A stretch of 64,000 bases of DNA from Methanosarcina barkeri str. Wiesmoor (lineage in GTDB: Archaea; Halobacteriota; Methanosarcinia; Methanosarcinales; Methanosarcinaceae). Location of the stretch: NCBI RefSeq assembly GCF_000969985.1, contig NZ_CP009526.1:4588001-4652000 (forward strand), read 5' to 3'. Under the pieces are notes generated by a model that searched no databases, was not told the origin of the DNA, and saw only the letters and a program-made list of their open reading frames with translations. The translations under genes and the position numbers were made by a program. Below, in pieces: positions 14,486 through 51,978 of this stretch (positions within the stretch are counted from its first letter, which is position 1; each line of letters begins with the position of its first letter).

Positions 14486-14642
14486 ATAAGGATTAACTTT
14501 TGGATAAAACTAGAACTTTAAGGATTCACAGAAACTAAAAAATCTATCTGATAGATAGTTGCTTTTAACGTTGCATTCTAACACTTTGTGTGGAGAGTAG
14601 GTATACTCTCCAACACATATGTTATATTTTTCTGGCCTTAAT

Positions 14643-16550
14643 TTATTTACATTCTTCTGTTGAAGTTTCTGCAGCATTATTACATGTCTTGTCTTCTGTT
14701 GAAGTATCTGCAGCATTGCTGCATGTCTTTTCTTCTGTCGAAGTTTCTGCTGAGGTATCTACAGCGTTGTCACATGTTTTTTCTTCTGTCGAAGTATCTG
14801 CAGCATTGCTACATGTCTCTTCTTCTGTCGAAGTTTCTGCTGAGGTATCTACAGCGTTGTCACATATCTCTTCTTCTGTTGAAGTATCTACAGCGTTGCT
14901 ACATGTTTTTTCTTCTGTTGAGGTATCTGCAGCATTGCTACATGTTTTTTCTTCTGTTGAAGTATCTGCAGCATTGCTGCATGTCTTTTCTTCTGTCGAA
15001 GTTTCTGCTGAGGTATCTACAGCGTTGTCACATGTTTTTTCTTCTGTCGAAGTATCTGCAGCATTGCTGCATGTCTTTTCTTCTGTCGAAGTTTCTGCTG
15101 AGGTATCTACAGCGTTGTCACATGTCTCTTCTTCTGTTGAAGTTTCTGCAGCATTATTACATGTCTTGTCTTCTGTTGAAGTATCTGCAGCATTGCTGCA
15201 TGTCTTTTCTTCTGTCGAAGTTTCTGCTGAGGTATCTACAGCGTTGTCACATGTTTTTTCTTCTGTCGAAGTATCTGCAGCATTGCTACATGTCTCTTCT
15301 TCTGTCGAAGTTTCTGCTGAGGTATCTACAGCGTTGTCACATGTCTCTTCTTCTGTTGAAGTATCTGCAGCATTGCTGCATGTCTTTTCTTCTGTCGAAG
15401 TTTCTGCTGAGGTATCTACAGCGTTGTCACATGTTTTTTCTTCTGTCGAAGTATCTGCAGCATTGCTACATGTCTCTTCTTCTGTCGAAGTTTCTGCTGA
15501 GGTATCTACAGCGTTGTCACATGTTTTTTCTTCTGTTGAAGTATCTGCAGCATTGCTACATGTTTTTTCTTCTGTTGAAGTATCTGCAGCATTGCTACAT
15601 GTCTTTTCTTCTGTTGAAGTATCTGCAGCATTGCTACATGTCTTTTCTTCTGTTGAAGTATCTGCAGCATTGCTACATGTCTTTTCTTCTGTTGAAGTAT
15701 CTGCAGCATTGCTACATGTCTTTTCTTCTGTTGAAGTATCTGCAGCATTGCTGCATGTCTTTTCTTCTGTCGAAGTTTCTGCTGAGGTATCTACAGCGTT
15801 GTCACATGTCTCTTCTTCTGTTGAAGTATCTGCAGCATTGCTGCATGTCTTTTCTTCTGTCGAAGTTTCTGCTGAGGTATCTACAGCGTTGTCACATGTC
15901 TCTTCTTCTGTTGAAGTATCTGCAGCATTGCTACATGCCTTTTCTTCTGTTGAAGTATCTGCTGAGGTATCTACAGCGTTGTCACATGTCTCTTCTTCTG
16001 TTGAAGTATCTGCAGCATTGCTACATGCCTTTTCTTCTGTTGAAGTATCTGCAGCATTGCTACATGTCTTTTCTTCTGTTGAGGTATCAACGCAGCCGCA
16101 TAATTCAGAGCTACAATTTGTTGAGCTACAATTTGTGAAGCTACAATTTACTAAGCTGCAATTTGTTAAGCTGCAATTTGTTAAGCTACAATTTGCGAAG
16201 CTACAATTTGCTTGCTCACAGTCTGTAACGGACTCGCAATTACAAGAGGTACATTCCTTGTTACAATCTATGTTCTGTTTTCCATCTACAATAGAAACAC
16301 AGCCGCATAATTCAGAGCTACAATTTGCTAAGCTACAATTTGCTGAGCTACAATTTACTAAGCTGCAATTTGCGAAGCTACAATTTGCTAAGCTGCAATT
16401 TGCGAAGCTACAATTTGCTTGCTCACAGTCTGTTGCAAACTTTACAGAATTATCACAGGAAGCTGCTCCTGCGGTAATTGAAGTTGAGATCATTAATATA
16501 AACAAAATAGATCCCATAATTTTTGCAATTGATTTTCCATTAGAATTCAT
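14643..16550 (-). CDS. Secreted cysteine-rich tandem-repeat protein
   Basis: 635 residues from the ATG at 16550, six bases after GAGG. A signal peptide (hydrophobic ILFILMIST, cleavage probably after AGAA near residue 30) is followed by two Cys pentapeptide-like blocks (NCSFA/NCSLA/NCSLT units). Each block ends SSELCGCV, and a Cys-rich linker (DCNKECTSCNCE) separates them. The remaining ~480 residues are about 33 units of 13 residues (DTSTEEKTCSNAA) or 17 residues (DTSAETSTEEKTCSNAA), one Cys each, ending EECK. It is acidic and Thr/Ser-rich with regularly spaced cysteines, and has no membrane anchor after the signal. I recognise no family. Likely cell-envelope or extracellular; disulfide cross-linking or metal binding are possible. 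Confidence 0.75.
   Translation of the reverse strand: MNSNGKSIAKIMGSILFILMISTSITAGAASCDNSVKFATDCEQANCSFANCSLANCSFANCSLVNCSSANCSLANCSSELCGCVSIVDGKQNIDCNKECTSCNCESVTDCEQANCSFANCSLTNCSLTNCSLVNCSFTNCSSTNCSSELCGCVDTSTEEKTCSNAADTSTEEKACSNAADTSTEEETCDNAVDTSADTSTEEKACSNAADTSTEEETCDNAVDTSAETSTEEKTCSNAADTSTEEETCDNAVDTSAETSTEEKTCSNAADTSTEEKTCSNAADTSTEEKTCSNAADTSTEEKTCSNAADTSTEEKTCSNAADTSTEEKTCSNAADTSTEEKTCDNAVDTSAETSTEEETCSNAADTSTEEKTCDNAVDTSAETSTEEKTCSNAADTSTEEETCDNAVDTSAETSTEEETCSNAADTSTEEKTCDNAVDTSAETSTEEKTCSNAADTSTEDKTCNNAAETSTEEETCDNAVDTSAETSTEEKTCSNAADTSTEEKTCDNAVDTSAETSTEEKTCSNAADTSTEEKTCSNAADTSTEEKTCSNAVDTSTEEEICDNAVDTSAETSTEEETCSNAADTSTEEKTCDNAVDTSAETSTEEKTCSNAADTSTEDKTCNNAAETSTEECK
14646..16095. 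repeat. 39-bp / 51-bp coding tandem repeat array
   Basis: The DNA underlying the C-terminal three quarters of the cysteine-rich protein repeats in units of 39 bp (plus-strand core TCTGCAGCATTGCTACATGT plus CTTTTCTTCTGTTGAAGTA) and 51 bp (extra TCTGCTGAGG-type block). Short and long units tend to alternate into a 90-bp higher-order repeat, except for a homogeneous run of 39-bp units around 15,530-15,750. Very low divergence among copies points to recent expansion or conversion. All unit lengths are multiples of three, so length changes keep the frame. Confidence 0.9.
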
Positions 16551-16984
16551 TTTATTCCTCTAGTTCCTCTGATTCCTCTAATCTTGTTCATCTAACTCGA
16601 GAAGACCTGGAACTAAAATTCATCCTTTCAATTATATATATAACAATACTTACATTAAATACATTATATAAAATTCACAAAAATGTATCTAACACTTCAT
16701 AACCACTAATAAGAAGATAAAAATAAATTTAAAGCTTTATAATGCTTTATTTACTTTTTATAATTATTTGCACAGCACAGAACTAAATATTAATTAATTT
16801 TATTAAATATTGATATTGTTCATTCTGCTTAACTGCACTTGCTCTTAAGATTTTAAAATTTTTAGTATTTGTTAAAATTTTCAAAATTTTTTCTTTTCAT
16901 TTATTTCTTGGGCGAGATCACAAAGCGCTTAAAACAGCTGGATTAATAGCTTTAATATATTTTAACGGCAACAATATCCAGCAG

Positions 16985-41045: not shown

Positions 41046-41522
41046 ATGGAAAAAAATCTTGGAATATACGAAAAGAATGATTCTGGAAATTATATTACAG
41101 ATGAGGAACGCAAACAATTGCTTTCGGCTCTGCATTCTCGCCTTTTCTGGGTCGGTCAGCGTATCCCGAATTATGTTGAGGTTGAGGGAGAAACTTATCC
41201 TCTACACAACTATGTATGGGAACTGGTTCAAAAAGAAGAACTCAGCGAATCTGAGAAATCCAGGATAAATAAATGCATTGAAATGCTTTCAGCAAAGGAA
41301 ATGAAGGATGAAAAAGAACTTGAAAAAGAGACCCTTACTTCGGAAGAATCAAGAAATCTCTATCATGAGACTGCAGGCTTATTGCGTGCAATCACAAATT
41401 TGAAGGAGATCGAGAGCGGAATCTTCAAACAAAATACGAAACGCTTTCAGGAAAAGTTCGCTAATCAGAGGGTTAAAGACGCAAAGCTCTGGCTGGAATT
41501 TATTAATAAAGTGTCCAAGTAA
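41046..41522 (+). CDS. DUF5788 family protein, copy 1
   Basis: 158 residues; GGGGGAGGAAG lies just before the ATG. An all-helical, charged, soluble protein: LLSALHSRLFWVGQRIPNYV, then EVEGETYPLHNYVWELVQKE, and LYHETAGLLRAITNLKEIE. A paralogue at 43210 shares the framework 'RSD/SRLFWVGQRIP--V--G--Y-L---V-EL--KE' and 'LYEEA-GLLRA---L'. The pair flanks pyrBI. Matches the archaeal DUF5788 family as I remember it; function unknown. Confidence 0.75.
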   Translation: MEKNLGIYEKNDSGNYITDEERKQLLSALHSRLFWVGQRIPNYVEVEGETYPLHNYVWELVQKEELSESEKSRINKCIEMLSAKEMKDEKELEKETLTSEESRNLYHETAGLLRAITNLKEIESGIFKQNTKRFQEKFANQRVKDAKLWLEFINKVSK

Positions 41523-41624: not shown

Positions 41625-42551
41625 ATGTCATTTAAGAACAGAAACGTCATTTCTATGAAGGACTTTTCGCGGAAAGAAATCAATTACATTCTGGATACGG
41701 CAGAAAAGCTTGAACCTGTGGCCAGAGGTAAAAAGAGGTCCCGGTTGCTGGATGGAAAAATAATAGCTCTTCTTTTTTTTGAACCAAGCACAAGGACAAG
41801 GCTGTCTTTTGAATCTGCTGCGCAGAGACTTGGAGGGCAGGTTCTCAACCTGGGTTCTGTGGAAGCAAGTTCAGTAATGAAAGGAGAAAATCTTGCCGAT
41901 ACTATTCGCGTAATCAGCAAATATGCAGATCTTATTGTTTTGCGTCATCCTCTTGATGGTTCGGCACGAATGGCTGCGGAATTTGCAAGTGTTCCTATAA
42001 TCAATGGTGGAGACGGCTCTTTACACCACCCTACACAAACTTTCCTTGACCTCTATACCATTCGCAGGGAAAGCCACCTAGAAGGTCTGAAGATCGCTAT
42101 GGCAGGAGATCTGAAGTATGGAAGAACAGTTCATTCCCTGTGTCATGCCCTATCCCTGTACGGAGCTGAAATTACCTTAGTTTCGCCTCCTGAACTCCGG
42201 ATGCCCCAGGAGATTATCAGGGATCTTCAAAAGAACAATATTCGAATTAGAGAAACCGATGCTCTTGAAGAAATAATTGGAGACGTCGAGGTTCTTTATA
42301 TGACAAGGGTTCAAAGGGAACGTTTCCCTGATCCTGAAGAGTATGAAAAGGTCAAAAACAAGTTGAAGGTTACAGGTGACCTACTGAAAAACGCAGATCC
42401 TAGCCTTAAGATTCTTCATCCCCTCCCACGGGTCAACGAAATCTCTCCTGAAGTGGATTCAACACCATATGCATGTTATTTCGAGCAGGCTTTTTATGGG
42501 GTTCCTACGCGGATGGCACTTCTTGCTCTTGCTACGGGAGTGATTGAATGA
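41625..42551 (+). CDS. pyrB: Aspartate carbamoyltransferase catalytic subunit
   Basis: 308 residues, standard size. Makes N-carbamoyl-aspartate in pyrimidine synthesis. The carbamoyl-phosphate motif FFEPSTRTRLSFESAAQRLG is near residue 50, VLRHPLDGSARMAAEFA and HHPTQTFLDLYTI follow, and KILHPLPRVNEISPEVD with YFEQAFYGVPTRMAL form the aspartate site. AGG precedes the ATG at 41625. Its stop overlaps the pyrI start (ATGA, 42548-42551), so the two subunits are translationally coupled. Confidence 0.97.
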   Translation: MSFKNRNVISMKDFSRKEINYILDTAEKLEPVARGKKRSRLLDGKIIALLFFEPSTRTRLSFESAAQRLGGQVLNLGSVEASSVMKGENLADTIRVISKYADLIVLRHPLDGSARMAAEFASVPIINGGDGSLHHPTQTFLDLYTIRRESHLEGLKIAMAGDLKYGRTVHSLCHALSLYGAEITLVSPPELRMPQEIIRDLQKNNIRIRETDALEEIIGDVEVLYMTRVQRERFPDPEEYEKVKNKLKVTGDLLKNADPSLKILHPLPRVNEISPEVDSTPYACYFEQAFYGVPTRMALLALATGVIE

Positions 42552-43018
42552 AGGAAAAAAGAGACCTGAAAATTCAGGCAATTGAAAATGGAACGGTGAT
42601 CGACCATATAAAGGCTGGGCAGGCCTTGAATGTTCTGCGTATACTTGGGATTTCCAGTGCTTTTCGAGCTACTATCAGTTTCGTTATGAATGCACCCGGC
42701 GCAGCAGGCATAAAAGACGTTGTGAAGATTGAAGGTAAGGAACTCAGCGTCGAAGAGCTTAACAGGATTGCCCTCATATCTCCAAAAGCCACTATCAATA
42801 TTATAAGGGATTTTAAAGTAGTTCAGAAAAATAAGGTTGTACTTCCTTCTTATGTTGAAGGTGTTGTACGCTGTATCAATCCAAACTGTATTTCCAATAG
42901 CAGTGAACCCATAAAATCCAAATTTTCCGTGCTCCAGTCCGAAGAAGAAGGGGTAACTCTAAACTGCCTTTACTGTGAACACGTAATTTCGGAAAATATA
43001 GCCGAAAATTTGCTATAA
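42548..43018 (+). CDS. pyrI: Aspartate carbamoyltransferase regulatory subunit
   Basis: 156 residues. The allosteric domain begins IQAIENGTVIDHIKAGQALN, where the Asp and His/Lys residues belong to the nucleotide site, followed by KIEGKELSVEELNRIALISP. The C-terminal zinc domain carries four cysteines in CINPNCISNSSE and LNCLYCEHVI, which hold it to the catalytic trimers. It overlaps pyrB by 4 nt. Confidence 0.97.
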   Translation: MKEKRDLKIQAIENGTVIDHIKAGQALNVLRILGISSAFRATISFVMNAPGAAGIKDVVKIEGKELSVEELNRIALISPKATINIIRDFKVVQKNKVVLPSYVEGVVRCINPNCISNSSEPIKSKFSVLQSEEEGVTLNCLYCEHVISENIAENLL

Positions 43019-43209
43019 ATGAAAATTTGCTGCAAATATATGACTTTCTGCAGGATAAAAATCAACCTTTGTTTTTATTTTGAGGTTCTCTTATAGGACT
43101 GAAGTGATCGGGAATTAATTCACAGGATATTAGTTCAGTGTAGTTCGTATATTATCAATTAATATAATTTTGCAGTTTTAACTGCTATTGTCTTCAGGGG
43201 AAATTGCTC

Positions 43210-43683
43210 ATGATAAAAAGAGATAATGATACGGAAGAGGCAGATAAAGAATATATTGGGTACGAAGAGCGCAATAAGCTACTCTGGAGTCTCAGGAGTG
43301 ATTTTGCCTGGGCAGGAAAGAAAATCCCTGAAAGCGTGGAGATTGATGGGCGTGAGTACAGACTCAGGGATATGGTTCGAGAGCTGAGCGAGAAAGAATC
43401 ATTGGATACAGATAAAGCTGCCGAAATCAGGGCTCTTATCCCAAAATTGAATGAAAAATCAAAAGTAGACGAAGAACTGCTAGAGACCGAAGAGCTTACA
43501 AAAGCAGAGGCTGAAGCCCTCTATGAAGAAGCAACTGGGCTTCTGCGGGCTTCAATGGAATTAAAAGACAAACTTGAGGGGAAAGGTGGGGAAAAAAGCG
43601 TCGACGAGTTTAAGCGTATGCTCAATACCCAGAAGATAGTGGACGAAAAGCATTTTCAGAATCTTATTAAAAGTTTAAAGTAA
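43210..43683 (+). CDS. DUF5788 family protein, copy 2
   Basis: 157 residues from the ATG at 43210; AGGGGAA lies about eight bases upstream (a TTG at 43204 overlaps this region). Paralogue of the 41046 protein: RNKLLWSLRSDFAWAGKKIP, VEIDGREYRLRDMVRELSEK, ALYEEATGLLRASMELKDK. Rich in Glu and Lys, predicted all helical, no membrane segment. Located 191 nt after pyrI on the same strand; convergent with the DUF1673 array. Function unknown. Confidence 0.75.
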   Translation: MIKRDNDTEEADKEYIGYEERNKLLWSLRSDFAWAGKKIPESVEIDGREYRLRDMVRELSEKESLDTDKAAEIRALIPKLNEKSKVDEELLETEELTKAEAEALYEEATGLLRASMELKDKLEGKGGEKSVDEFKRMLNTQKIVDEKHFQNLIKSLK

Positions 43684-43718: not shown

Positions 43719-44513
43719 TCAGGGAATTTCAATTCCAGGATAGTTTTCTATTTCTTCTTTATTTTCAATTTTCTGCTCATTCTTATTTTTGAAGGTCGAC
43801 ATAATTTCTTCCGGTTCTTCGGTATAGAATTCCAAATTTAAGTTTGAACGTGTAGTAATTTTAAGGATCTGTTGATAGGGCACTGTGAATTCGAAGATAT
43901 AAAAATAAATAACAAGAACATATGCAATTATCCAGAAATCTACCATAACTGAGCTTAGTTTTATGAAAGCCGGAGCTGCTTCCATCTGCAAATCTCTGGT
44001 TATACTTTCTATGGTATGAGGTAGTTGAATTGCAAGGAAAACAAGGAGAAACAAACGTAGTGGCCAACGTAAAGAATTGCCTTTGTTCTTAGATACTGAA
44101 GTCTGCACGATATCCTCTTTCCTTAATACGAGAGACCTGAACAGATGCCTGCGAATGATTATTTTTTCAGGAATTAACAGTACAGTAGTACGATTATAAA
44201 GAATAAAAGCCAAAAAAGCCAGATAAGGGATTAAGGAAGAAAAGAGATCGAAAAAAGAGCCTACTGGACTGCATAATCCCAAAATTAAACTGATTACTAA
44301 CGCTGTAACGATGATTTTTACAGTTCCATAGCCTCTATACAGGGCCCGCCCTTTCAGAACTTTACTTTCTTGCAGACTTGCAGGAGAGGAGGCCAGCCAG
44401 CTTCTGCTTTCCGGTTTGAAACCAGAAAAGTAGTTTTCTTGCTTTTCTTTTCTAAAAGAATTTTTCATCGGGCACCAGCCCATCAGTTTTCTGAAGTATT
44501 TCACAAAAATCAT
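43719..44513 (-). CDS. DUF1673 membrane protein, array member 12 (last, divergent)
   Basis: 264 residues, the longest member. The N-terminus FRKLMGWCPMKN keeps the family motif. Four hydrophobic segments (about residues 66-85, 90-106, 150-168, 190-212) lie between basic loops; IIIRRHLFRSLVLRKEDIVQ is a soluble stretch. The tail is acidic (EEPEEIMSTFKNKNEQKIEN) and lacks the YWEKKNH motif of the other members. A 23-bp tandem duplication around the start (44497-44545) supplies two copies of the ATG context. It is separated from member 11 by 116 nt, more than the rest. Confidence 0.72.
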   Translation of the reverse strand: MIFVKYFRKLMGWCPMKNSFRKEKQENYFSGFKPESRSWLASSPASLQESKVLKGRALYRGYGTVKIIVTALVISLILGLCSPVGSFFDLFSSLIPYLAFLAFILYNRTTVLLIPEKIIIRRHLFRSLVLRKEDIVQTSVSKNKGNSLRWPLRLFLLVFLAIQLPHTIESITRDLQMEAAPAFIKLSSVMVDFWIIAYVLVIYFYIFEFTVPYQQILKITTRSNLNLEFYTEEPEEIMSTFKNKNEQKIENKEEIENYPGIEIP

Positions 44514-44629
44514 CTAACGACTTTCACAAAAATCATCTAACGACTTCACAAATGCCTTTCAATAGATGATTTAAGCTCTGCAGCCAGGGTTTCATCCGTG
44601 ATTAAGGAATAGTAAGAGTCCAACTCATA

Positions 44630-45271
44630 TCATTTTTTGTGTTTAGTCTTGATGTACAGCTGTGTATTCAAATTCCCAAATTGGGTTTTTTGCTTTTCCA
44701 TTGCAAACAGAATGAGGGGGAGCAGTGAGATTAATAGCAGAAGTATTTTCCATTCTCCTTTTACTACAGCCATGTAGACCACGAATCCGCAGAGGGCAAT
44801 TCCTCCAATTATCAGGAGAAGGGACATTTTCTTTGAACGCTTTTCAAGCCTGTACGACTTTATGCTTTCTATTTCTTCATAAGGAATATTAAATTTCTTC
44901 AATCTGAAGGCCTGAAGGCGTACTCCTGATCTGTCTACCAGAACTGCCGCCTCGAAGGTTTTGAGAACTAACAAATAATAAGAGAAGTTAAATAAAAGGA
45001 GATCCACCAGGAAAAGAAAAGTTTCTTCTGGAAACTTCAGGCGCAGGAGCAGGTTGAAGCTTATCATAAAATATGCTAAAGAGATAGTTGTATTTGCAGG
45101 AAAAACTACATTCGAAATTTGGAACTCCAAGAAGTTTCCTGTTTTTCCGGAGATTGGAACCATATTTGCAAAGTCATGGAATTGCTTTGTCTGCTGTGCT
45201 GTTTTTTTGTAAACCGGGCACCAACCCATCAACTTTTTGATCTGCTCAAAAGCGACAGTTTTAGCAGGCAT
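44630..45271 (-). CDS. DUF1673 membrane protein, array member 11
   Basis: 213 residues. Starts MPAKTVAFEQIKKLMGWCPV, close to the N-terminus of type A members (F/EQIKKLMGWCP), but the rest is divergent: helices near residues 58-78, 83-103, 150-168 and 172-190, with a PH-like middle (LVDRSGVRLQAFRLKKFNIP) instead of the usual loop, and a short basic tail ending KTKHKK. Its ATG follows the TAA of member 10 directly (TAAATG). Confidence 0.75.
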   Translation of the reverse strand: MPAKTVAFEQIKKLMGWCPVYKKTAQQTKQFHDFANMVPISGKTGNFLEFQISNVVFPANTTISLAYFMISFNLLLRLKFPEETFLFLVDLLLFNFSYYLLVLKTFEAAVLVDRSGVRLQAFRLKKFNIPYEEIESIKSYRLEKRSKKMSLLLIIGGIALCGFVVYMAVVKGEWKILLLLISLLPLILFAMEKQKTQFGNLNTQLYIKTKHKK

Positions 45272-45871
45272 TTATTTTTTCTCCCTGATAATATACGAAG
45301 TTTTCCAGGTTTCGTGTTTTTTGTCGAAATAAATGGTTTTGTGGTTCTTTTTCTCCCAGTATATTAGCTGGAAATAACCAATCCACATTGCAACCGTGGA
45401 ACCTCCCAATAATGAAAATATTGCTTGCATAGCAAGTTCTTGGCCTTTAAACCAAAAGTAGAAAATCACAATCATAAACGCATATGCGAGTATGTAATAC
45501 AGTGTCTTCTTACCTGAATAATCAATTACTGGTTGTTTTACCAGAGAGTCATATCTTTGCATTTGAGCATTCCAGTCAAATATAATGAAAAACAGGGAAA
45601 TCAAAGATCCGGCAAGTAAAAAAAATAGATTTACACCTAGTTGATTAATTACAAGGAGAGACGCAAGTGTAAGAAAAGTGTTAATCAGAAAAGTTTGGAC
45701 ATTTGTTTTTTGGAGCCATCCGAGATTTTTCTGACCTCCGTCATTTCCACCTGTTCTACTCGAAATACCATATTCAAAACTTTCAAAGTTAATGAGTTGT
45801 CTTCCCTCAGGCGCTTTTGCGTTTGGGCACCATCCCATCAACTTTTTTATGTATCTGGACTCCCGGATCAT
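45272..45871 (-). CDS. DUF1673 membrane protein, array member 10 (type C)
   Basis: 199 residues from the ATG at 45871, which follows AAAGGGGGAAG and overlaps the stop of member 9 as ATGA. The frame is open upstream into member 9, but the family motif fixes the start: MIRESRYIKKLMGWCPNAKA. Type C features: INFESFEYGISSRTGGNDGG, GWLQKTNVQTFLINTFLTLA, and the C-terminal YFQLIYWEKKNHKTIYFDKK followed by a Thr-Trp-Lys tail ending REKK. Unlike the other units, no type B gene separates it from the type A gene upstream. Confidence 0.8.
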   Translation of the reverse strand: MIRESRYIKKLMGWCPNAKAPEGRQLINFESFEYGISSRTGGNDGGQKNLGWLQKTNVQTFLINTFLTLASLLVINQLGVNLFFLLAGSLISLFFIIFDWNAQMQRYDSLVKQPVIDYSGKKTLYYILAYAFMIVIFYFWFKGQELAMQAIFSLLGGSTVAMWIGYFQLIYWEKKNHKTIYFDKKHETWKTSYIIREKK

Positions 45872-46497
45872 AGTTCTTCCCCCTTTTCTCCAAGGACATA
45901 CAACTTTTGCTGTCCCTTTTTTCTCTTTGTATAAATTTTCACATGGTTTTTCTTCTCCCAGTAAATTAGCTGGAAATAGAAGCCCCACATAAGAATCAGA
46001 ACTCCTGTAGTGAAAGAATACAGAACCTGATCGTTAAGAAGATAAACTGCATGAGACGAGATATAGGGCAATAAAGCCATGAGCAAAGTGAAACCCAAAA
46101 ATAGGAATAAGACCACGCAGGCAAGCGTTCTTCTAAAGGAAGGAGAAACAACAGGATTTATTTTCACGGCATCGTATTGATGCATCTGTTTTTTCCAGCC
46201 GAGCAAATAGATCGGTAAAGAAAGTGAAAGGCCAAGAAGGAAAGCCTCTGTATTTATACCTTTTTGAAATAATTTTATGTAAACAGGAGTTAAGAAAATT
46301 GGTAGTAGAAGGAGTTGGGTATCAAGCCTGGAATGCTGGCTTGGAACCATTGGATTTTTTGCTTTTTCTCCTTCCGATTGATCATTTGCTTCAAAATTAG
46401 CAGAGCTAATCCGGGGTCCGGTATCAAGTGCTTTTGCATAGGGACACCAGCCCATAAGCTTTTTAATCTGATCAAAAACAAAAGTTTTATTGGACAT
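45868..46497 (-). CDS. DUF1673 membrane protein, array member 9 (type A)
   Basis: 209 residues. Type A features: MSNKTFVFDQIKKLMGWCPY, SSANFEANDQSEGEKAKNPM, SRLDTQLLLLPIFLTPVYIK and a WGFYFQLIYWEKKNHVKIYT end. Four hydrophobic segments. The ATG directly follows the TAA of member 8; its TGA overlaps the start of member 10. Closest relatives are members 6 and 3. Confidence 0.8.
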   Translation of the reverse strand: MSNKTFVFDQIKKLMGWCPYAKALDTGPRISSANFEANDQSEGEKAKNPMVPSQHSRLDTQLLLLPIFLTPVYIKLFQKGINTEAFLLGLSLSLPIYLLGWKKQMHQYDAVKINPVVSPSFRRTLACVVLFLFLGFTLLMALLPYISSHAVYLLNDQVLYSFTTGVLILMWGFYFQLIYWEKKNHVKIYTKRKKGQQKLYVLGEKGEEL

Positions 46498-47103
46498 TTA
46501 TTTTCGCTCCAGGATTACGTACGACTTCTTCCATGTTCCGTAGCTTTTGTCAAAATAAATCGTTACGTGATTAATTTTCTCCCAATATATTATTTGGAAA
46601 TAGCTAAGCCAAATTCCAACCAGTAAACCCGCGCCGAATGAAACTATTACTTGCGGGATATGTTCGTGACCAACAATGATACTAAGGAAAAATATCACAA
46701 AATAAAGCGCATACGGGATCGTGAGTATAATACTTTTCTTCTTGTCTGAATGTTCAATAACTGACCGCTTTATCAGGGCATCGTATCTTTCCATTTGAAT
46801 CTTCCAGTAAAATGCAACATCAACCAACGCAGTGAAAAATCCGGCAAGTAAAAAGATCGGGTTTATGCTTGTTTGATTAAGTACCAGAAAACACACGGAC
46901 GTATAAAAAATGCCAAATAGAAGAATTCGAGTACTTGCTTTCCGGAGCCTTTCTGGACTTTTCATATCTCCGCCTTCTCTTCCTGCTCCGGCTGGAATGT
47001 CTAACTCAAAACGCTCAAGATTAACGTACTGACTGGTTTCAGATATTCTGGCATTCGGGCACCATCCCATAAGCTTTTTTATGTTTTCAACTCTAAGGCT
47101 CAC
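46498..47103 (-). CDS. DUF1673 membrane protein, array member 8 (type C)
   Basis: 201 residues starting at GTG (47103), which overlaps the TGA of member 7 as GTGA. MSLRVENIKKLMGWCPNARI, then VNLERFELDIPAGAGREGGD and LSYFQIIYWEKINHVTIYFD; the end TWKKSYVILERK is the same as in member 5. The soluble Gly/Arg-rich linker between motif and first helix is typical of type C. Confidence 0.8.
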   Translation of the reverse strand: MSLRVENIKKLMGWCPNARISETSQYVNLERFELDIPAGAGREGGDMKSPERLRKASTRILLFGIFYTSVCFLVLNQTSINPIFLLAGFFTALVDVAFYWKIQMERYDALIKRSVIEHSDKKKSIILTIPYALYFVIFFLSIIVGHEHIPQVIVSFGAGLLVGIWLSYFQIIYWEKINHVTIYFDKSYGTWKKSYVILERK

Positions 47104-47699
47104 ATTTTTCCCTCCTTTTCCCCAATAGCATATGCCTTTTGGAAGCCATTTTCACTTTCAATATAAATTCTCATATGGTTTTTCTTCTCCCAGTGAATTA
47201 GCTGGAAATAAAAACCCCACATGAAAAAACAAAGAATTGAAAGTCCGAATAAGGCTGAGTGCCAGGATTGTCTTATCATATAAGTGAGCAACATAAGCAG
47301 AGCAATAAAAACTATGATTATCAAAACCCAAAGATATGATAATTTAGAGACATAACGGACAATAGGTTTTTTCGCAATGTCGTTGAACCGCTGAATCCGC
47401 TCATTCCAGTGAAATACAAAATAAAATAGGGGAGGTAATGATGCGAAAAAGGATGGGAGAAGGCCCATGTGATTGTATATAAGGAAATGAACAAATGTTA
47501 AAAAAATAGCAAATAGAAGAATTTGATTGCTTTCTCTCTGGAGCCATCCGGAGTTCTTTAAACAGCTATTATCTCCCCTTGCTCTGTCCGGAACATTGGA
47601 ATCAAAATATTCAAGGTCAATATTCCTTCTAGCTTCAGGTGCTCTGGCGTTAGGGCACCATCCCATCAGCTTTTTTATACTTTCGACTTTAAGGCTCAC
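47100..47699 (-). CDS. DUF1673 membrane protein, array member 7 (type B)
   Basis: 199 residues starting at GTG (47699), overlapping the TGA of member 6. MSLKVESIKKLMGWCPNARA, NIDLEYFDSNVPDRARGDNS, then helices within ILLFAIFLTFVHFLIYNHMG and LWVLIIIVFIALLMLLTYMI, ending WEKKNHMRIYIESENGFQKA. Nearly the same as member 4 (48,928-49,530) at the DNA level, 1.83 kb away, so a recent duplicate. Confidence 0.82.
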   Translation of the reverse strand: MSLKVESIKKLMGWCPNARAPEARRNIDLEYFDSNVPDRARGDNSCLKNSGWLQRESNQILLFAIFLTFVHFLIYNHMGLLPSFFASLPPLFYFVFHWNERIQRFNDIAKKPIVRYVSKLSYLWVLIIIVFIALLMLLTYMIRQSWHSALFGLSILCFFMWGFYFQLIHWEKKNHMRIYIESENGFQKAYAIGEKEGKM

Positions 47700-48322
47700 T
47701 TTCCCCCCTCCTTTTCCCCGATAGTATACGTCTTTTGGAATCTATTTTCATTTTTGATATGAATTATCATGTGATTTTTTTTCTCCCAGTAAAATAGCTG
47801 AAGGCAAGTTCCCCACATAGTAAGAATCCAGGTTGCTGCAATAAAAGAATACATTGATTGAGAGCTAATAGAAGAAGGCGTGTAAGACAAGAAAACTATA
47901 GGTGGGAAACTCAAAAACAAAATTAGAGAGAAGAAAACAAAGAAGAGTACTATTTTAGAGATATAACGAACAGTGGGTTTTTTTGCGGCGGCATCGTATT
48001 CACGTATCTGATTTTTCCAGAAAAGTAAATTTATCATCAAAGAAAACAAAATGCCCAAAAAGAGGAACTCAAAATTTACACCCTTTACTAACAGCATAAC
48101 TGTGTAAAGAGGAGTTAGGAAAAGGGTTGGTAGGAGTAGTCTGACATCAAGCCTGGAAAAACGGTTCAGAGCCAGCGGGCTCCTGGCCTTTTCTCCTCGA
48201 GACCGAGCATATGCTTCAAAATTAACAGGGCTACTTCTAGATCCTGTTTCAAGTGGTTTTGCATTCGGGCACCATCCCATCAGCTTTTTGATCTGATCAA
48301 AAACAAAAACTTTAGCTGACAT
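47696..48322 (-). CDS. DUF1673 membrane protein, array member 6 (type A)
   Basis: 208 residues. MSAKVFVFDQIKKLMGWCPN, SSPVNFEAYARSRGEKARSP, FSRLDVRLLLPTLFLTPLYT, and LQLFYWEKKNHMIIHIKNEN at the end. The ATG abuts the TAA of member 5. The tail FQKTYTIGEKEGGK resembles type B tails, so the 3' part may have been exchanged between types. Confidence 0.8.
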   Translation of the reverse strand: MSAKVFVFDQIKKLMGWCPNAKPLETGSRSSPVNFEAYARSRGEKARSPLALNRFSRLDVRLLLPTLFLTPLYTVMLLVKGVNFEFLFLGILFSLMINLLFWKNQIREYDAAAKKPTVRYISKIVLFFVFFSLILFLSFPPIVFLSYTPSSISSQSMYSFIAATWILTMWGTCLQLFYWEKKNHMIIHIKNENRFQKTYTIGEKEGGK

Positions 48323-48931
48323 TTATTTTCTCTCCAGGATTACGTACGACTTCTTCCATGTTCCGTGGCTTTTGTCAAAATAAATCGTTTTGTGGTTCTT
48401 TTTCTGCCAATATATTAGCTGGAAATAGCTAAGCCACATTACGACTAGGAGACCACTCATAAATGAAATTATTACTTGCATAGAATGGTTCCTTTCCACA
48501 TCTCCAGAAAAAATCCAATAAAAAAGAAATGCATAAAAAATTAGATTCATTATTTGAGATACTTTTTTCATGAAGGAGTTATCACAAATGTGTTTCTGTG
48601 CGAGAGTGTCGTATCTGCGCATCTGCTTCTTCCAGTCAAAGACAATAACTGCTACAGAAATGGAAAATCCTGCAAGTAAAAAGGTTAGATTTAGACCCAG
48701 ATGATTAATCGCCAGGAGATATGCAAGTGTAAATAAAATGTTAATCAGGATAGTGTAAGCACTCGTTTTCCGAAGCCATCCGGGATTTCTTTGATCCCCG
48801 TTATCTCCCTTTGCTTTGTCCGGGATATCAGAATCAAAATTCTCAAAGCTAATGTTTCGTCTGGATTCAGATGCTTTGGCATTAGGACACCATCCCATAA
48901 GCTTTTTTATGTTTTTAACTCTAAGGCTCAC
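48323..48931 (-). CDS. DUF1673 membrane protein, array member 5 (type C)
   Basis: 202 residues from GTG at 48931, overlapping the TGA of member 4. MSLRVKNIKKLMGWCPNAKA, ISFENFDSDIPDKAKGDNGD, INILFTLAYLLAINHLGLNL and YFQLIYWQKKNHKTIYFDKS. Here the second residue of the WEKKNH motif is Gln. The C-terminus matches member 8. Confidence 0.8.
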   Translation of the reverse strand: MSLRVKNIKKLMGWCPNAKASESRRNISFENFDSDIPDKAKGDNGDQRNPGWLRKTSAYTILINILFTLAYLLAINHLGLNLTFLLAGFSISVAVIVFDWKKQMRRYDTLAQKHICDNSFMKKVSQIMNLIFYAFLFYWIFSGDVERNHSMQVIISFMSGLLVVMWLSYFQLIYWQKKNHKTIYFDKSHGTWKKSYVILERK

Positions 48932-49530
48932 ATTTCTCCCTCCTTTTCCCCAATAGCATATGCCTTTTGGAAGCCATTTTCACTTTCAATATAAATTCTC
49001 ATATGGTTTTTCTTCTCCCAGTGAATTTGCTGGAAATAAAAACCCCACATCAAAAAACAAAGAATTGAAAGTCCTAATAAGGCTAAGTGCCAGGATTGTA
49101 TTATCATATAAGTGAGCAACATCATCGGAGCAATAAAAACTATGATTATCAAAAAAACCCAAAGATATGATAATTTAGAGACATGGCGGACAATAGGTTT
49201 TTTCGCGATGTCGTTGAACCGCTGAATCCGCTCTTTCCAGTGAAATACAAAATAAAATAGGGGAGGTAATGGTGCGAAAAAGGATGGGAGAAGGCCCATG
49301 TGATTGTATATAAGGAAATGAACAAATGTTAAAAAAATAGCAAATAGAAGAGTTTGATTGCTTTCTCTCTGGAGCCATCCGGGGTTCTTTAAACAGCTAT
49401 TATCTCCCCTTGCTCTGTCCGGAACATTGGAATCAAAATTTTCAAGGTCAATATTCCTTCTGGCTTCAGATGCTTTTGCATTTGGGCACCATCCCATCAA
49501 CTTTTTAATATATTTTGCTTCCCAATTTAT
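48928..49530 (-). CDS. DUF1673 membrane protein, array member 4 (type B), start codon ATA or lost
   Basis: About 200 residues if read from ATA at 49530. From there the frame gives NWEAKYIKKLMGWCPNAKAS, seven codons before IKK, exactly as in member 7 (GTG start). A ribosome site GGAGG ends seven bases upstream. The ATA overlaps the TAA of member 3 as ATAA, where other junctions are ATGA or GTGA. The first canonical starts, TTG 49500 and ATG 49497, would remove the IKKL part of the family motif. The body is nearly the same as member 7. Either AUA initiation or a recently silenced gene. Confidence 0.75.
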   Translation of the reverse strand: MNWEAKYIKKLMGWCPNAKASEARRNIDLENFDSNVPDRARGDNSCLKNPGWLQRESNQTLLFAIFLTFVHFLIYNHMGLLPSFFAPLPPLFYFVFHWKERIQRFNDIAKKPIVRHVSKLSYLWVFLIIIVFIAPMMLLTYMIIQSWHLALLGLSILCFLMWGFYFQQIHWEKKNHMRIYIESENGFQKAYAIGEKEGEM

Positions 49531-50144
49531 ATCTCTCCCTCCTTTTCCCCAATAACATACATCTTTTGGAATCCCTTTTCATTTTTTACATAAATTTTCA
49601 TATTGTTTTTTCTTTCCCAATAAATTAACTGAAGATAACTTCCCCACATAAAGATCCAGGCTCCAGCACCTAAGGAATACAATGATCTAACGTTAAGAAA
49701 AGAGGATATCTGAGATAAGAAAACCATAGGCAAAATTAATAACAAGATTATTGCTAAGAAAACCCAGAAGAATGTTTTTTTAAGGGAAGAACCAACAACA
49801 GGCTTTTTCGTCAGGGAATCGTAATGATGTATCTGCTTTTTCCAGCCAAGCAGATAAATCAGCAGAGAAAGTGAAAAACCTAAAAAGAAGGCCTCTGCAT
49901 TTATACTTTTTTGAAATAGCAAATTTATGTAAAAAGGAGTTATGAATAGTGTTGGTAGGAGAATTCGAATATCAAGCCTGGAAAAAAGCTTGGAAATACG
50001 ACTTGTAATCTCTGGATTCCTGGCTTTTTCTCCTCCAGATTGACCATATAATTCAAAATTAGCAGAACTAATCCTGGGTCCGTTTTCAAATGCTTTTGCA
50101 TTCGGGCACCATCCCATCAGTTTCTTGATGTATTCCAGAGTCAT
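49527..50144 (-). CDS. DUF1673 membrane protein, array member 3 (type A)
   Basis: 205 residues; GGGGAGATGCT precedes the ATG, 13 nt after the stop of member 2. The first residues MTLEYIKKLMGWCPNAKAFE are like member 2, but the rest is type A: SSANFELYGQSGGEKARNPE, SRLDIRILLPTLFITPFYIN, LQLIYWERKNNMKIYVKNEK. A hybrid N-terminus suggests recombination between types 2 and A. Its stop is the TAA of the ATAA junction. Confidence 0.8.
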   Translation of the reverse strand: MTLEYIKKLMGWCPNAKAFENGPRISSANFELYGQSGGEKARNPEITSRISKLFSRLDIRILLPTLFITPFYINLLFQKSINAEAFFLGFSLSLLIYLLGWKKQIHHYDSLTKKPVVGSSLKKTFFWVFLAIILLLILPMVFLSQISSFLNVRSLYSLGAGAWIFMWGSYLQLIYWERKNNMKIYVKNEKGFQKMYVIGEKEGEI

Positions 50145-50157
50145 AGCATCTCCCCGT

Positions 50158-50859
50158 TTATGTATTTACAATGTAGATTCCCGGCATTTTGCGCCCGTAC
50201 ACAATTATTATTTTCCCATTCCTCTTTTCCCAGTATACATCCGTAAGGTAATACAGAAAAGCCGTCAAACAAAAGCCAGATAGAAATGCTATAATGTATT
50301 TCCAGTCAAGCCATAAACTTAAGCCGAGAAGCACTACTAAGCCAGTTGAATCAAAATTAAAATAATAAAACAAAGCTATCAAACAAAAGGCAGAAATAAA
50401 AAACACAATGAGTCCCCAATTAAACTGTGAAAAAAAGAAATACAGTAATACCAGGGAAAGCATTAGATTTATAACTCTCCATTTTGGATACACAATATTC
50501 TTCTTTATTTTCTTGCCTGTGCTTTTTATTTTATTCAAGAAATGCCAGTTCCAGATGCACAAGAGCAGGTTAAAAATGGTTCCGATAGTTAACCCAAATA
50601 TGAAACCTTTATCCATAGGATGAATGCCCAGAAAGCCAATTCCCAACAAGGATACAAGAGTCAGCCCTGAAGACATCATTAAGGTCCTGTTATGGCGTCT
50701 GCTCCACCAACCAGTGGGTAAAACCGGAAGACTTCCAGCATCTCTCCCTTTAGCTTGGTCACTTGCTTCAAAATATTTTGAATGGATGGCATGTTGAGTT
50801 TCAAGCATTTTTGCATTCGGGCACCATCCCATCAGTTTCTTAATGTATTCCAGAGTCAT
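50158..50859 (-). CDS. DUF1673 membrane protein, array member 2
   Basis: About 233 residues from the ATG at 50859, chosen because member 3 starts with the same MTLEYIKKLMGWCPNAK; an ATG at 50877 overlapping the stop of member 1 is an alternative. Shares with member 1 the stretch RRHNRTLMMSSGLTLVSLLG and the end YLTDVYWEKRNGKIIIVYGR. It has extra hydrophobic segments (LMLSLVLLYFFFSQFNWGLI, VLLGLSLWLDWKYIIAFLSG), so probably six membrane helices rather than four. Confidence 0.8.
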   Translation of the reverse strand: MTLEYIKKLMGWCPNAKMLETQHAIHSKYFEASDQAKGRDAGSLPVLPTGWWSRRHNRTLMMSSGLTLVSLLGIGFLGIHPMDKGFIFGLTIGTIFNLLLCIWNWHFLNKIKSTGKKIKKNIVYPKWRVINLMLSLVLLYFFFSQFNWGLIVFFISAFCLIALFYYFNFDSTGLVVLLGLSLWLDWKYIIAFLSGFCLTAFLYYLTDVYWEKRNGKIIIVYGRKMPGIYIVNT

Positions 50860-50873
50860 AGTGTCCATTCCAT

Positions 50874-51455
50874 TCATGCATTTACAATGTAGATATCTGG
50901 CATGTAACTCCCTTCCAGAAGCACGATTTTTTCGTTTTTCTTTTCCCAGTATACATCTGTAAGGTAATACAGAAAAGATGTCAAACAAAAACCGGAAATA
51001 AATGCCAAAACAACTCTCCAGCCAACCAGTGAAGACTGTGTAAGCAGTGTTGTAAAGCCTAATAACCCAGATATGACTATCAATTTATTTTTTGTCTGAA
51101 CTCTTTTGCTGGAGTTTTTTATTTTATTCAAAAAATGCCAGTTCCAGATGCAAAGAGGCAGGTTAAAGATAGTTCCGATAATTAGCCCAAATATGAAACT
51201 TTCATCTCTGAGATGCACCCCAAAAAATCCAATTCCCAACAAGGATACAAGAGTCAGCCCTGAAGACATCATTAAGGTCCTGTTATGGCGTCTGTTCCAC
51301 CACCCGGAGGATAAAGGCGAATTTGCGGCATCTTTTCCTCTGGACTGATTGTTCGCTTCAAAATATTCAGGGTGGATGGCATGTTGATTTTCAATCGTTT
51401 TTGCGTTTGGACACCACCCCATAAGCTTCCTTATACTTTTTGTGAATACGTCCAT
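50874..51455 (-). CDS. DUF1673 membrane protein, array member 1
   Basis: 193 residues; GTGAAGGG lies about eight bases before the ATG, 40 nt after the regulator gene. MDVFTKSIRKLMGWCPNAKT, then HPEYFEANNQSRGKDAANSP, RRHNRTLMMSSGLTLVSLLG, and the end LYYLTDVYWEKKNEKIVLLE. Pairs with member 2: about 90 bases around 50,640-50,730 and 51,230-51,320 are almost the same. First membrane-protein gene of the operon. Confidence 0.8.
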   Translation of the reverse strand: MDVFTKSIRKLMGWCPNAKTIENQHAIHPEYFEANNQSRGKDAANSPLSSGWWNRRHNRTLMMSSGLTLVSLLGIGFFGVHLRDESFIFGLIIGTIFNLPLCIWNWHFLNKIKNSSKRVQTKNKLIVISGLLGFTTLLTQSSLVGWRVVLAFISGFCLTSFLYYLTDVYWEKKNEKIVLLEGSYMPDIYIVNA

Positions 51456-51495
51456 CTTTAACCCTTCACTTAATTTTACCTGCCTTTACTCAGGC

Positions 51496-51945
51496 CTATT
51501 CTATCGATTCTTTTAATTTCTCAAACAATTCATCAGCTATCTTTGTGGGATCATCCGTACTCTGTAGTTTGAGCTGCATCTCTTCTGCAAAGTCCCAAAG
51601 GAGTTCGATGCATTCTCTGTACCTCTCACAAGACCCGCATTCACCTTCGTGTTCATACCAGACCTGCATTCCGTGTTTTGCCGAAACAAAGATTATTGCA
51701 TTGGCTTTGAAAGGTATCGATTTCCCAAAGAGTATCCCTTTCTTTGAGTCAAGTTTTTCAACTTCGATCCTGTTTGCACTGGCCATTTCAAGCAGGGTTT
51801 CCTCAATGCGTTTATTCATACTGAGAAGGGCTCGCGAGACTGCCTGCCTGGAGACCCCGAAACGCTTTGCGATATTGATATTCGGGAGCCCGTTTCGGCG
51901 CAGAACCCAGAATTCAAACTGTTTTTCACCTGCCGGTATGAACAT
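51496..51945 (-). CDS. HTH transcriptional regulator (Tfx-like) heading the DUF1673 operon
   Basis: 149 residues. The N-terminal half holds a sigma-region-4-like helix-turn-helix, FWVLRRNGLPNINIAKRFGV followed by SRQAVSRALLSMNKRIEE; the C-terminal half is a small alpha/beta domain (LFGKSIPFKANAIIFVSAKH) ending in a Cys group GECGSCERYREC that may bind metal. The layout resembles archaeal Tfx-type regulators. ATG at 51945 lies about 27 nt from a strong TATA box, so the message is nearly leaderless. It is only 40 nt upstream of the first DUF1673 gene on the same strand, and probably controls its own operon. Confidence 0.8.
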   Translation of the reverse strand: MFIPAGEKQFEFWVLRRNGLPNINIAKRFGVSRQAVSRALLSMNKRIEETLLEMASANRIEVEKLDSKKGILFGKSIPFKANAIIFVSAKHGMQVWYEHEGECGSCERYRECIELLWDFAEEMQLKLQSTDDPTKIADELFEKLKESIE

Positions 51946-51966
51946 ATGTAAACATCTGAACGTTGA

Positions 51967-51978
51967 CTATATATAACT
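51967..51978 (-). promoter_or_regulatory. TATA box of the regulator/DUF1673 operon
   Basis: AGTTATATATAG on the minus strand, preceded by purine-rich AGCAGAA. Its centre is about 27 nt before the ATG at 51945, which implies a leaderless or very short-leader transcript. Confidence 0.65.

Follow-up and report, generated by a model that had tools for sequence, protein, structure and literature searches.

The window analysed here, a 64,000-nucleotide stretch of the Methanosarcina barkeri genome, carries on its minus strand twelve head-to-tail ORFs (43719-51455) whose products all start with KLMGWCP, directly preceded by the gene of an HTH regulator (51496-51945). That these form a genuine array of DUF1673 genes, as proposed in the initial annotation, is borne out by Pfam profile matches: eleven of the twelve score above the 30.4-bit cut-off of the family (PF07895), and the remaining one, gene 11, is marginal, falling just under it with 26.7 bits. 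Read downstream from the HTH gene, the junctions measure 40, 14, 13, -4, -4, 0, -4, -4, 0, -4, 0, and 116 nt, the value of -4 nt at gene 4 assuming a start at the ATA at 49530. With genes that overlap or abut and a single TATA-operator in the region, the locus would represent one polycistron led by the HTH gene, as was first suggested from its layout.

Numbered from the regulator, the tagged DUF1673 genes are gene 1 (50874-51455; 193 aa, 4 TM), gene 2 (50158-50859; 233 aa, 64% identical to gene 1), gene 3 (49527-50144; 205 aa), gene 4 (48928-49530), gene 5 (48323-48931; 202 aa), gene 6 (47696-48322; 208 aa), gene 7 (47100-47699; 199 aa), gene 8 (46498-47103; 201 aa), gene 9 (45868-46497; 209 aa), and gene 10 (45272-45871; 199 aa), the latter starting from the ATG at 45871, as the listed GTG start at 45988 is too long. 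Genes 1-10 have the YWEKKNH-type end that had been attributed to most of the array, and genes 11 and 12 lack it. In gene 4, an ATA (49527-49530) stands where relatives have an ATG (MNW...), indicating that the start is damaged or non-canonical; either this ATA or a later TTG may be used, or the gene may be decaying. In every protein, lysine and arginine residues occur at both termini and in the middle loop, and hardly ever in the remaining two loops, which by the positive-inside rule points to four transmembrane helices with a cytoplasmic C-terminus and an equally cytoplasmic N-terminus, tag included. The cytoplasmic side initially assumed for the Cys of GWCP is consistent with this distribution, but the invariance assumed along with it is not complete: the residue is nearly invariant, the exceptions being a few copies with MRWHP and one HTH subtype that is paired with G[LV]LC[RP].

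Genes 11 (44630-45271) and 12 (43719-44513) are also tagged and of a PH-like type. Gene 11 is shortened by a TGA at the position of a Trp in its relatives, and comparison of the translation with theirs shows that the lost C-terminus, 27 codons and a stop, is still readable beyond the TGA (44546-44629, minus strand). The 264-aa product of gene 12 is predicted to form seven strands, two inserted TM hairpins, and a C-terminal helix. When this model was compared to the PDB with Foldseek, many of the best matches were PH/PTB domains, at weak E-values (0.15 to 1.5); a few relatives matched bPH_5/bPH_6, equally at weak E-values, and searching PDB sequences with a profile of the PH-like set gave no match. 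Based on the predicted structure, gene 12 would possess a PH-like cytoplasmic domain, and gene 11 probably does as well.

The array paralogues are 16-64% identical to each other, with the exception of genes 4 and 7, whose proteins are 89% and whose DNA is 96% identical, and array size ranges from 2 to about 15, with broken copies present, in agreement with the earlier suggestion of a diversifying family. For genes 4 and 7, the closest pair, we obtained a dN of 0.037 and a dS of 0.061, a ratio of about 0.6 that indicates weak or relaxed constraint and gives no sign of positive selection. At the DNA level, the pattern ATGGGNTGGTGYCC has 14 matches in the genome, 12 of which are within the array, and its reversed control has none. 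Just past the array lie two DUF5788 genes (41046-41522 and 43204-43683) on either side of an aspartate carbamoyltransferase-like pair (41625-43018), and elsewhere in the window two very long overlapping ORFs of 657 and 635 aa occupy opposite strands (14590-16563).

The leading HTH gene codes for a protein of 149 aa which does contain the cysteine cluster initially noticed, as part of the motif H99-x3-C103-x2-C106-x5-C112. All 107 distinct sequences retain the three cysteines, and 99% retain H99. Against TIGR00721, the protein scores 18.2 bits, where the curated cut-off is 60.25, a weak match to the Tfx family by sequence. Its predicted structure (pLDDT 89.5) has the order helix, helix, long helix, alpha+beta, as in EnfR, a repressor of the Tfx family whose binding site is a pseudo-palindrome in the vicinity of a start codon; the top PDB match of the model (8hno) is weak (E = 0.088, TM 0.34). 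We call the protein Tfx-like, an assignment that, together with the PH-like and AglB-like ones, lies under curated or E-value thresholds.

Homologues of the HTH are found in 71 of 393 sampled genomes of the phylum, and are conserved across several archaeal families. Among the genomes of the order, 72 possess both the HTH and DUF1673, 2 and 15 possess one alone, and 97 neither, a co-occurrence with p = 1e-33 in a test that ignores phylogeny. A search of viral contigs for the HTH and gene 5 gave no relatives of either, and a viral origin was rejected on this basis.

Upstream of the operon, a TATA box TTATATATA (51968-51976, minus strand) is located about 27 nt before the ATG, and the interval between the two contains a 20-bp imperfect palindrome GTCAACGTTCAGATGTTTAC (51948-51967, minus strand) that is the predicted operator of the HTH. 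The TATA box adjoins the palindrome in the aligned Methanosarcina regulon sites, except the G152 site, and this TATA-palindrome-ATG geometry suggests that the operon transcript is probably leaderless. The palindrome, whose commonest form is GTCAAC[AG]T-N4-ATGTT[GT]AC, is present within 2 mismatches in 87 of the 88 testable HTH promoters, belonging to several families. Of random windows, 6 in 2800 come within 1 mismatch of it, and five Methanosarcina genomes that do not have the HTH contain no such site. Control of the predicted operator by the HTH is well supported.

Concerning the tag, a reading of the MGWCP start as defining DUF1673 is not supported, since the same tag is common to unrelated membrane proteins. 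Of the 105 distinct HTH loci having enough downstream sequence, which come from Methanosarcinales, ANME-2 and related archaea, and Methanomicrobiales, 95 have the tag at the start of genes that follow the HTH; among the ten loci without the usual tag, three show the GLCR variant, and at least two others are decayed or rearranged. The parts of the proteins that follow the tag fall into many groups with no mutual similarity by BLAST. These include classical DUF1673, PH-like types, and a 5-TM type that has a WWD motif and an AglB/STT3-core-like domain scoring below cut-off, as well as SdpI/DUF1648 (1e-17), Yip1 (7e-15), and DUF6159 (8e-7) bodies, and a polysaccharide flippase in the genome of the window (3e-21) and in genome G151. 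Synonymous variation at the Gly, Cys, and Pro codons of the tag indicates that it is conserved as protein; the possibility of a DNA-level conservation for recombination was rejected for this reason. To judge from these sequences, MGWCP is a tag at the cytoplasmic N-terminus of membrane proteins with unrelated bodies, and not a DUF1673 signature.

Methanoperedens proteins (L152:11136-12155 and L129:3783-5618) carry the tag twice per chain, ahead of different membrane bodies. In the same genome as the window (C2), at about 2.2 Mb (L001:3127-5614), a second HTH copy, 89% identical, is found with a decayed DUF1673 remnant and an MGWCP fused to a Wzx-like flippase, next to an ABC exporter that has an operator to itself, and a matching arrangement exists in G151 (L194). 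At about 3.16 Mb of the same genome (L002:4964-5410), a TATA-operator and a remnant of the start of the HTH gene precede a lone shortened tagged gene.

Operator and tag vary together with the regulator. In an HTH subtype (HTH2) with the recognition helix TRQGVSQ, all six HTH genes (6/6) are associated with the operator GTAAAY...ATTTAC and the tag G[LV]LC[RP], whereas helices of the S[RK]QxVS type, and one KKAVSR, are associated with the usual operator and with [GS]WCP in all cases where the two were read. Such a joint change suggests that regulator, operator, and tag are tied together, although the HTH2 cases come from one group of related genomes and perhaps reflect a single event.

The site of the HTH is not confined to the array, and also precedes other envelope genes. 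In Methanosarcina, there are eight further exact sites, ahead of Yip1 genes (three), LolA-like lipoprotein genes (three), a lone tagged gene, and an HTH fragment, and a near-exact site lies upstream of an ABC exporter in the three genomes (3/3) that have this exporter. One genome, G149, combines the array with operators at LolA-like and ABC exporter genes. Several of these extra sites (lone tag, LolA, ABC exporter) precede relics of the HTH start, and some may therefore be decayed copies and not recruited promoters. Moreover, sites were not found before all Yip1 and LolA paralogues: they are limited to sub-clades, and most LolA and distant Yip1 paralogues are without one.

In 24 genomes of other archaea, where the reversed control pattern has no match, sites precede S-layer-like secreted proteins, a Yip1 gene, and, directly, a tagged gene, and a minority (e.g. 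L265, L256) have no evident target. Five S-layer-like genes have their ATG 2 nt past the palindrome, same as the HTH gene, and the TATA-palindrome module is present before Yip1 in two orders. The Methanoregula cases, where the operator is found before both S-layer-like genes and a Yip1 gene, are the cleanest sequence evidence for a true regulon. One regulatory site is shared by several envelope genes, as in a SigW-like regulon.

Based on these data, we favour with moderate confidence the interpretation that an archaeal cell-envelope regulon, autoregulated by the HTH, has the array as its core operon and the tag as a docking element. With regulator, site, and tag recurring among methane-metabolising archaea, and the site also found ahead of other cell-surface genes, it looks like an undescribed envelope control system and not just a gene expansion. 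The Tfx-type HTH would probably repress its own promoter by binding the palindrome between TATA and ATG, and copies of the TATA-operator would bring Yip1, LolA-like lipoproteins, the ABC exporter, and S-layer-like proteins under the same regulator. DUF1673 proteins would act in membrane protection or sensing, and the MGWCP tag would dock the HTH, or else some shared partner, at the membrane, most likely via the three-cysteine cluster of the HTH; the state of the membrane would then set the availability of the regulator. The envelope role of the regulon is moderately supported, while docking by the tag is something that we only infer, and the docking partner is conjecture. More tentatively, any protein acquiring MGWCP might hold the HTH at the membrane, with the Cys of the tag completing a metal or Fe-S site, which would provide interchangeable sensors for one transcription factor; this version is possible at best. 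A few tagged proteins have lost the Cys, and H99 could make a complete metal site with the three cysteines in the absence of the tag.

Alternatively, the HTH may be a simple autoregulator acting locally on a fast-evolving membrane-protein family, the extra operators being old relics of HTH-array loci and the tag a motif for hetero-oligomer assembly. The HTH relics after several extra sites would fit such a scenario, as would the birth and death seen in broken copies and size variation, and subunits made from the same operon could co-assemble. However, the S-layer-like genes of Methanoregula, with their ATG 2 nt from the operator, lead directly into a secreted protein, the Yip1 site recurs in two orders, and the presence of the same tag on unrelated bodies argues for a common outside partner and not for a family interface, making this scenario rather doubtful. 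A different role for the tag, as a redox or metal sensor in itself, unrelated to the HTH, for example through a modified thiol switching each membrane protein, may be suggested by a near-invariant cytoplasmic Cys beside Trp and Pro, but appears unlikely, as the tag changes together with the HTH subtype and the two nearly always co-occur.

We also considered that the array could be an anti-virus or toxin-immunity cassette diversifying under attack, its proteins being effectors or immunity proteins. The family is among archaeal dark-matter island families, its arrays vary and recombine, and in Bacillus SdpI and Yip1 relatives protect against the SdpC toxin. Yet PADLOC gave no convincing match, the best being to a generic 2TM effector (E = 4e-4), and a known anti-phage defence system was rejected given such weak matches only; viral contigs gave no relatives of the HTH or gene 5, and the regulator is conserved in several archaeal families, which sets it apart from a mobile defence cassette. 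We thus hold a defence cassette to be very unlikely, noting that its immunity version overlaps with the envelope regulon that we favour.

Envelope stress control, a well-known subject in bacteria, is to our knowledge poorly described in archaea. By analogy, the proposed archaeal envelope-homeostasis regulon would resemble in repertoire the SigW regulon of Bacillus subtilis, with which it overlaps in Yip1 (YknW), SdpI/YfhL, and bacterial PH-like membrane proteins, represented in the SigW repertoire by YdbST. In Bacillus, YknW (Yip1) and YfhL (a SdpI paralogue) are parts of systems that protect against a membrane-active toxin. The regulator is a Tfx-type HTH protein here and a sigma/anti-sigma system there, and the archaeal, probably leaderless promoter and the MGWCP tag set the present system further apart. 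With the Tfx family (Tfx/MTH0916, EnfR/TON_1525), the HTH protein has in common the HTH, long helix, and alpha+beta of the predicted model and a palindrome near the start codon; it differs by a sequence match far under the cut-off, the extra CxxC-x5-C, and a link to the envelope and not to energy metabolism. Transcription factors held by a membrane protein or complex are known from Mlc-PtsG and PspF-PspA, and the logic proposed here is the same, except that the putative interaction would rely on one tag carried by many bodies.

The expansion of this same family in Methanosarcina (DUF1673, PF07895; arCOG06827 / SC.00027) and its MGWCP motif have been recorded previously, without a regulator, operator, regulon, or function, and with the motif read as a family mark (PMC4158269, PMC4390880); the initial remark that no function is established for the family holds. 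Beyond expansion and motif, our findings appear to be undescribed in the searchable literature, where we found nothing relevant on M. acetivorans MA4475-MA4486 (guessed locus numbers) or on the antimicrobial-peptide response, and no expression data bearing on induction by membrane-active agents.

The regulator, its DNA site, the predicted targets, and the tag are all testable in genetically tractable Methanosarcina, and offer a role for a family so far recorded only as an expansion. Should the tag dock the regulator, it would represent a modular coupling of many membrane proteins to one transcription factor.
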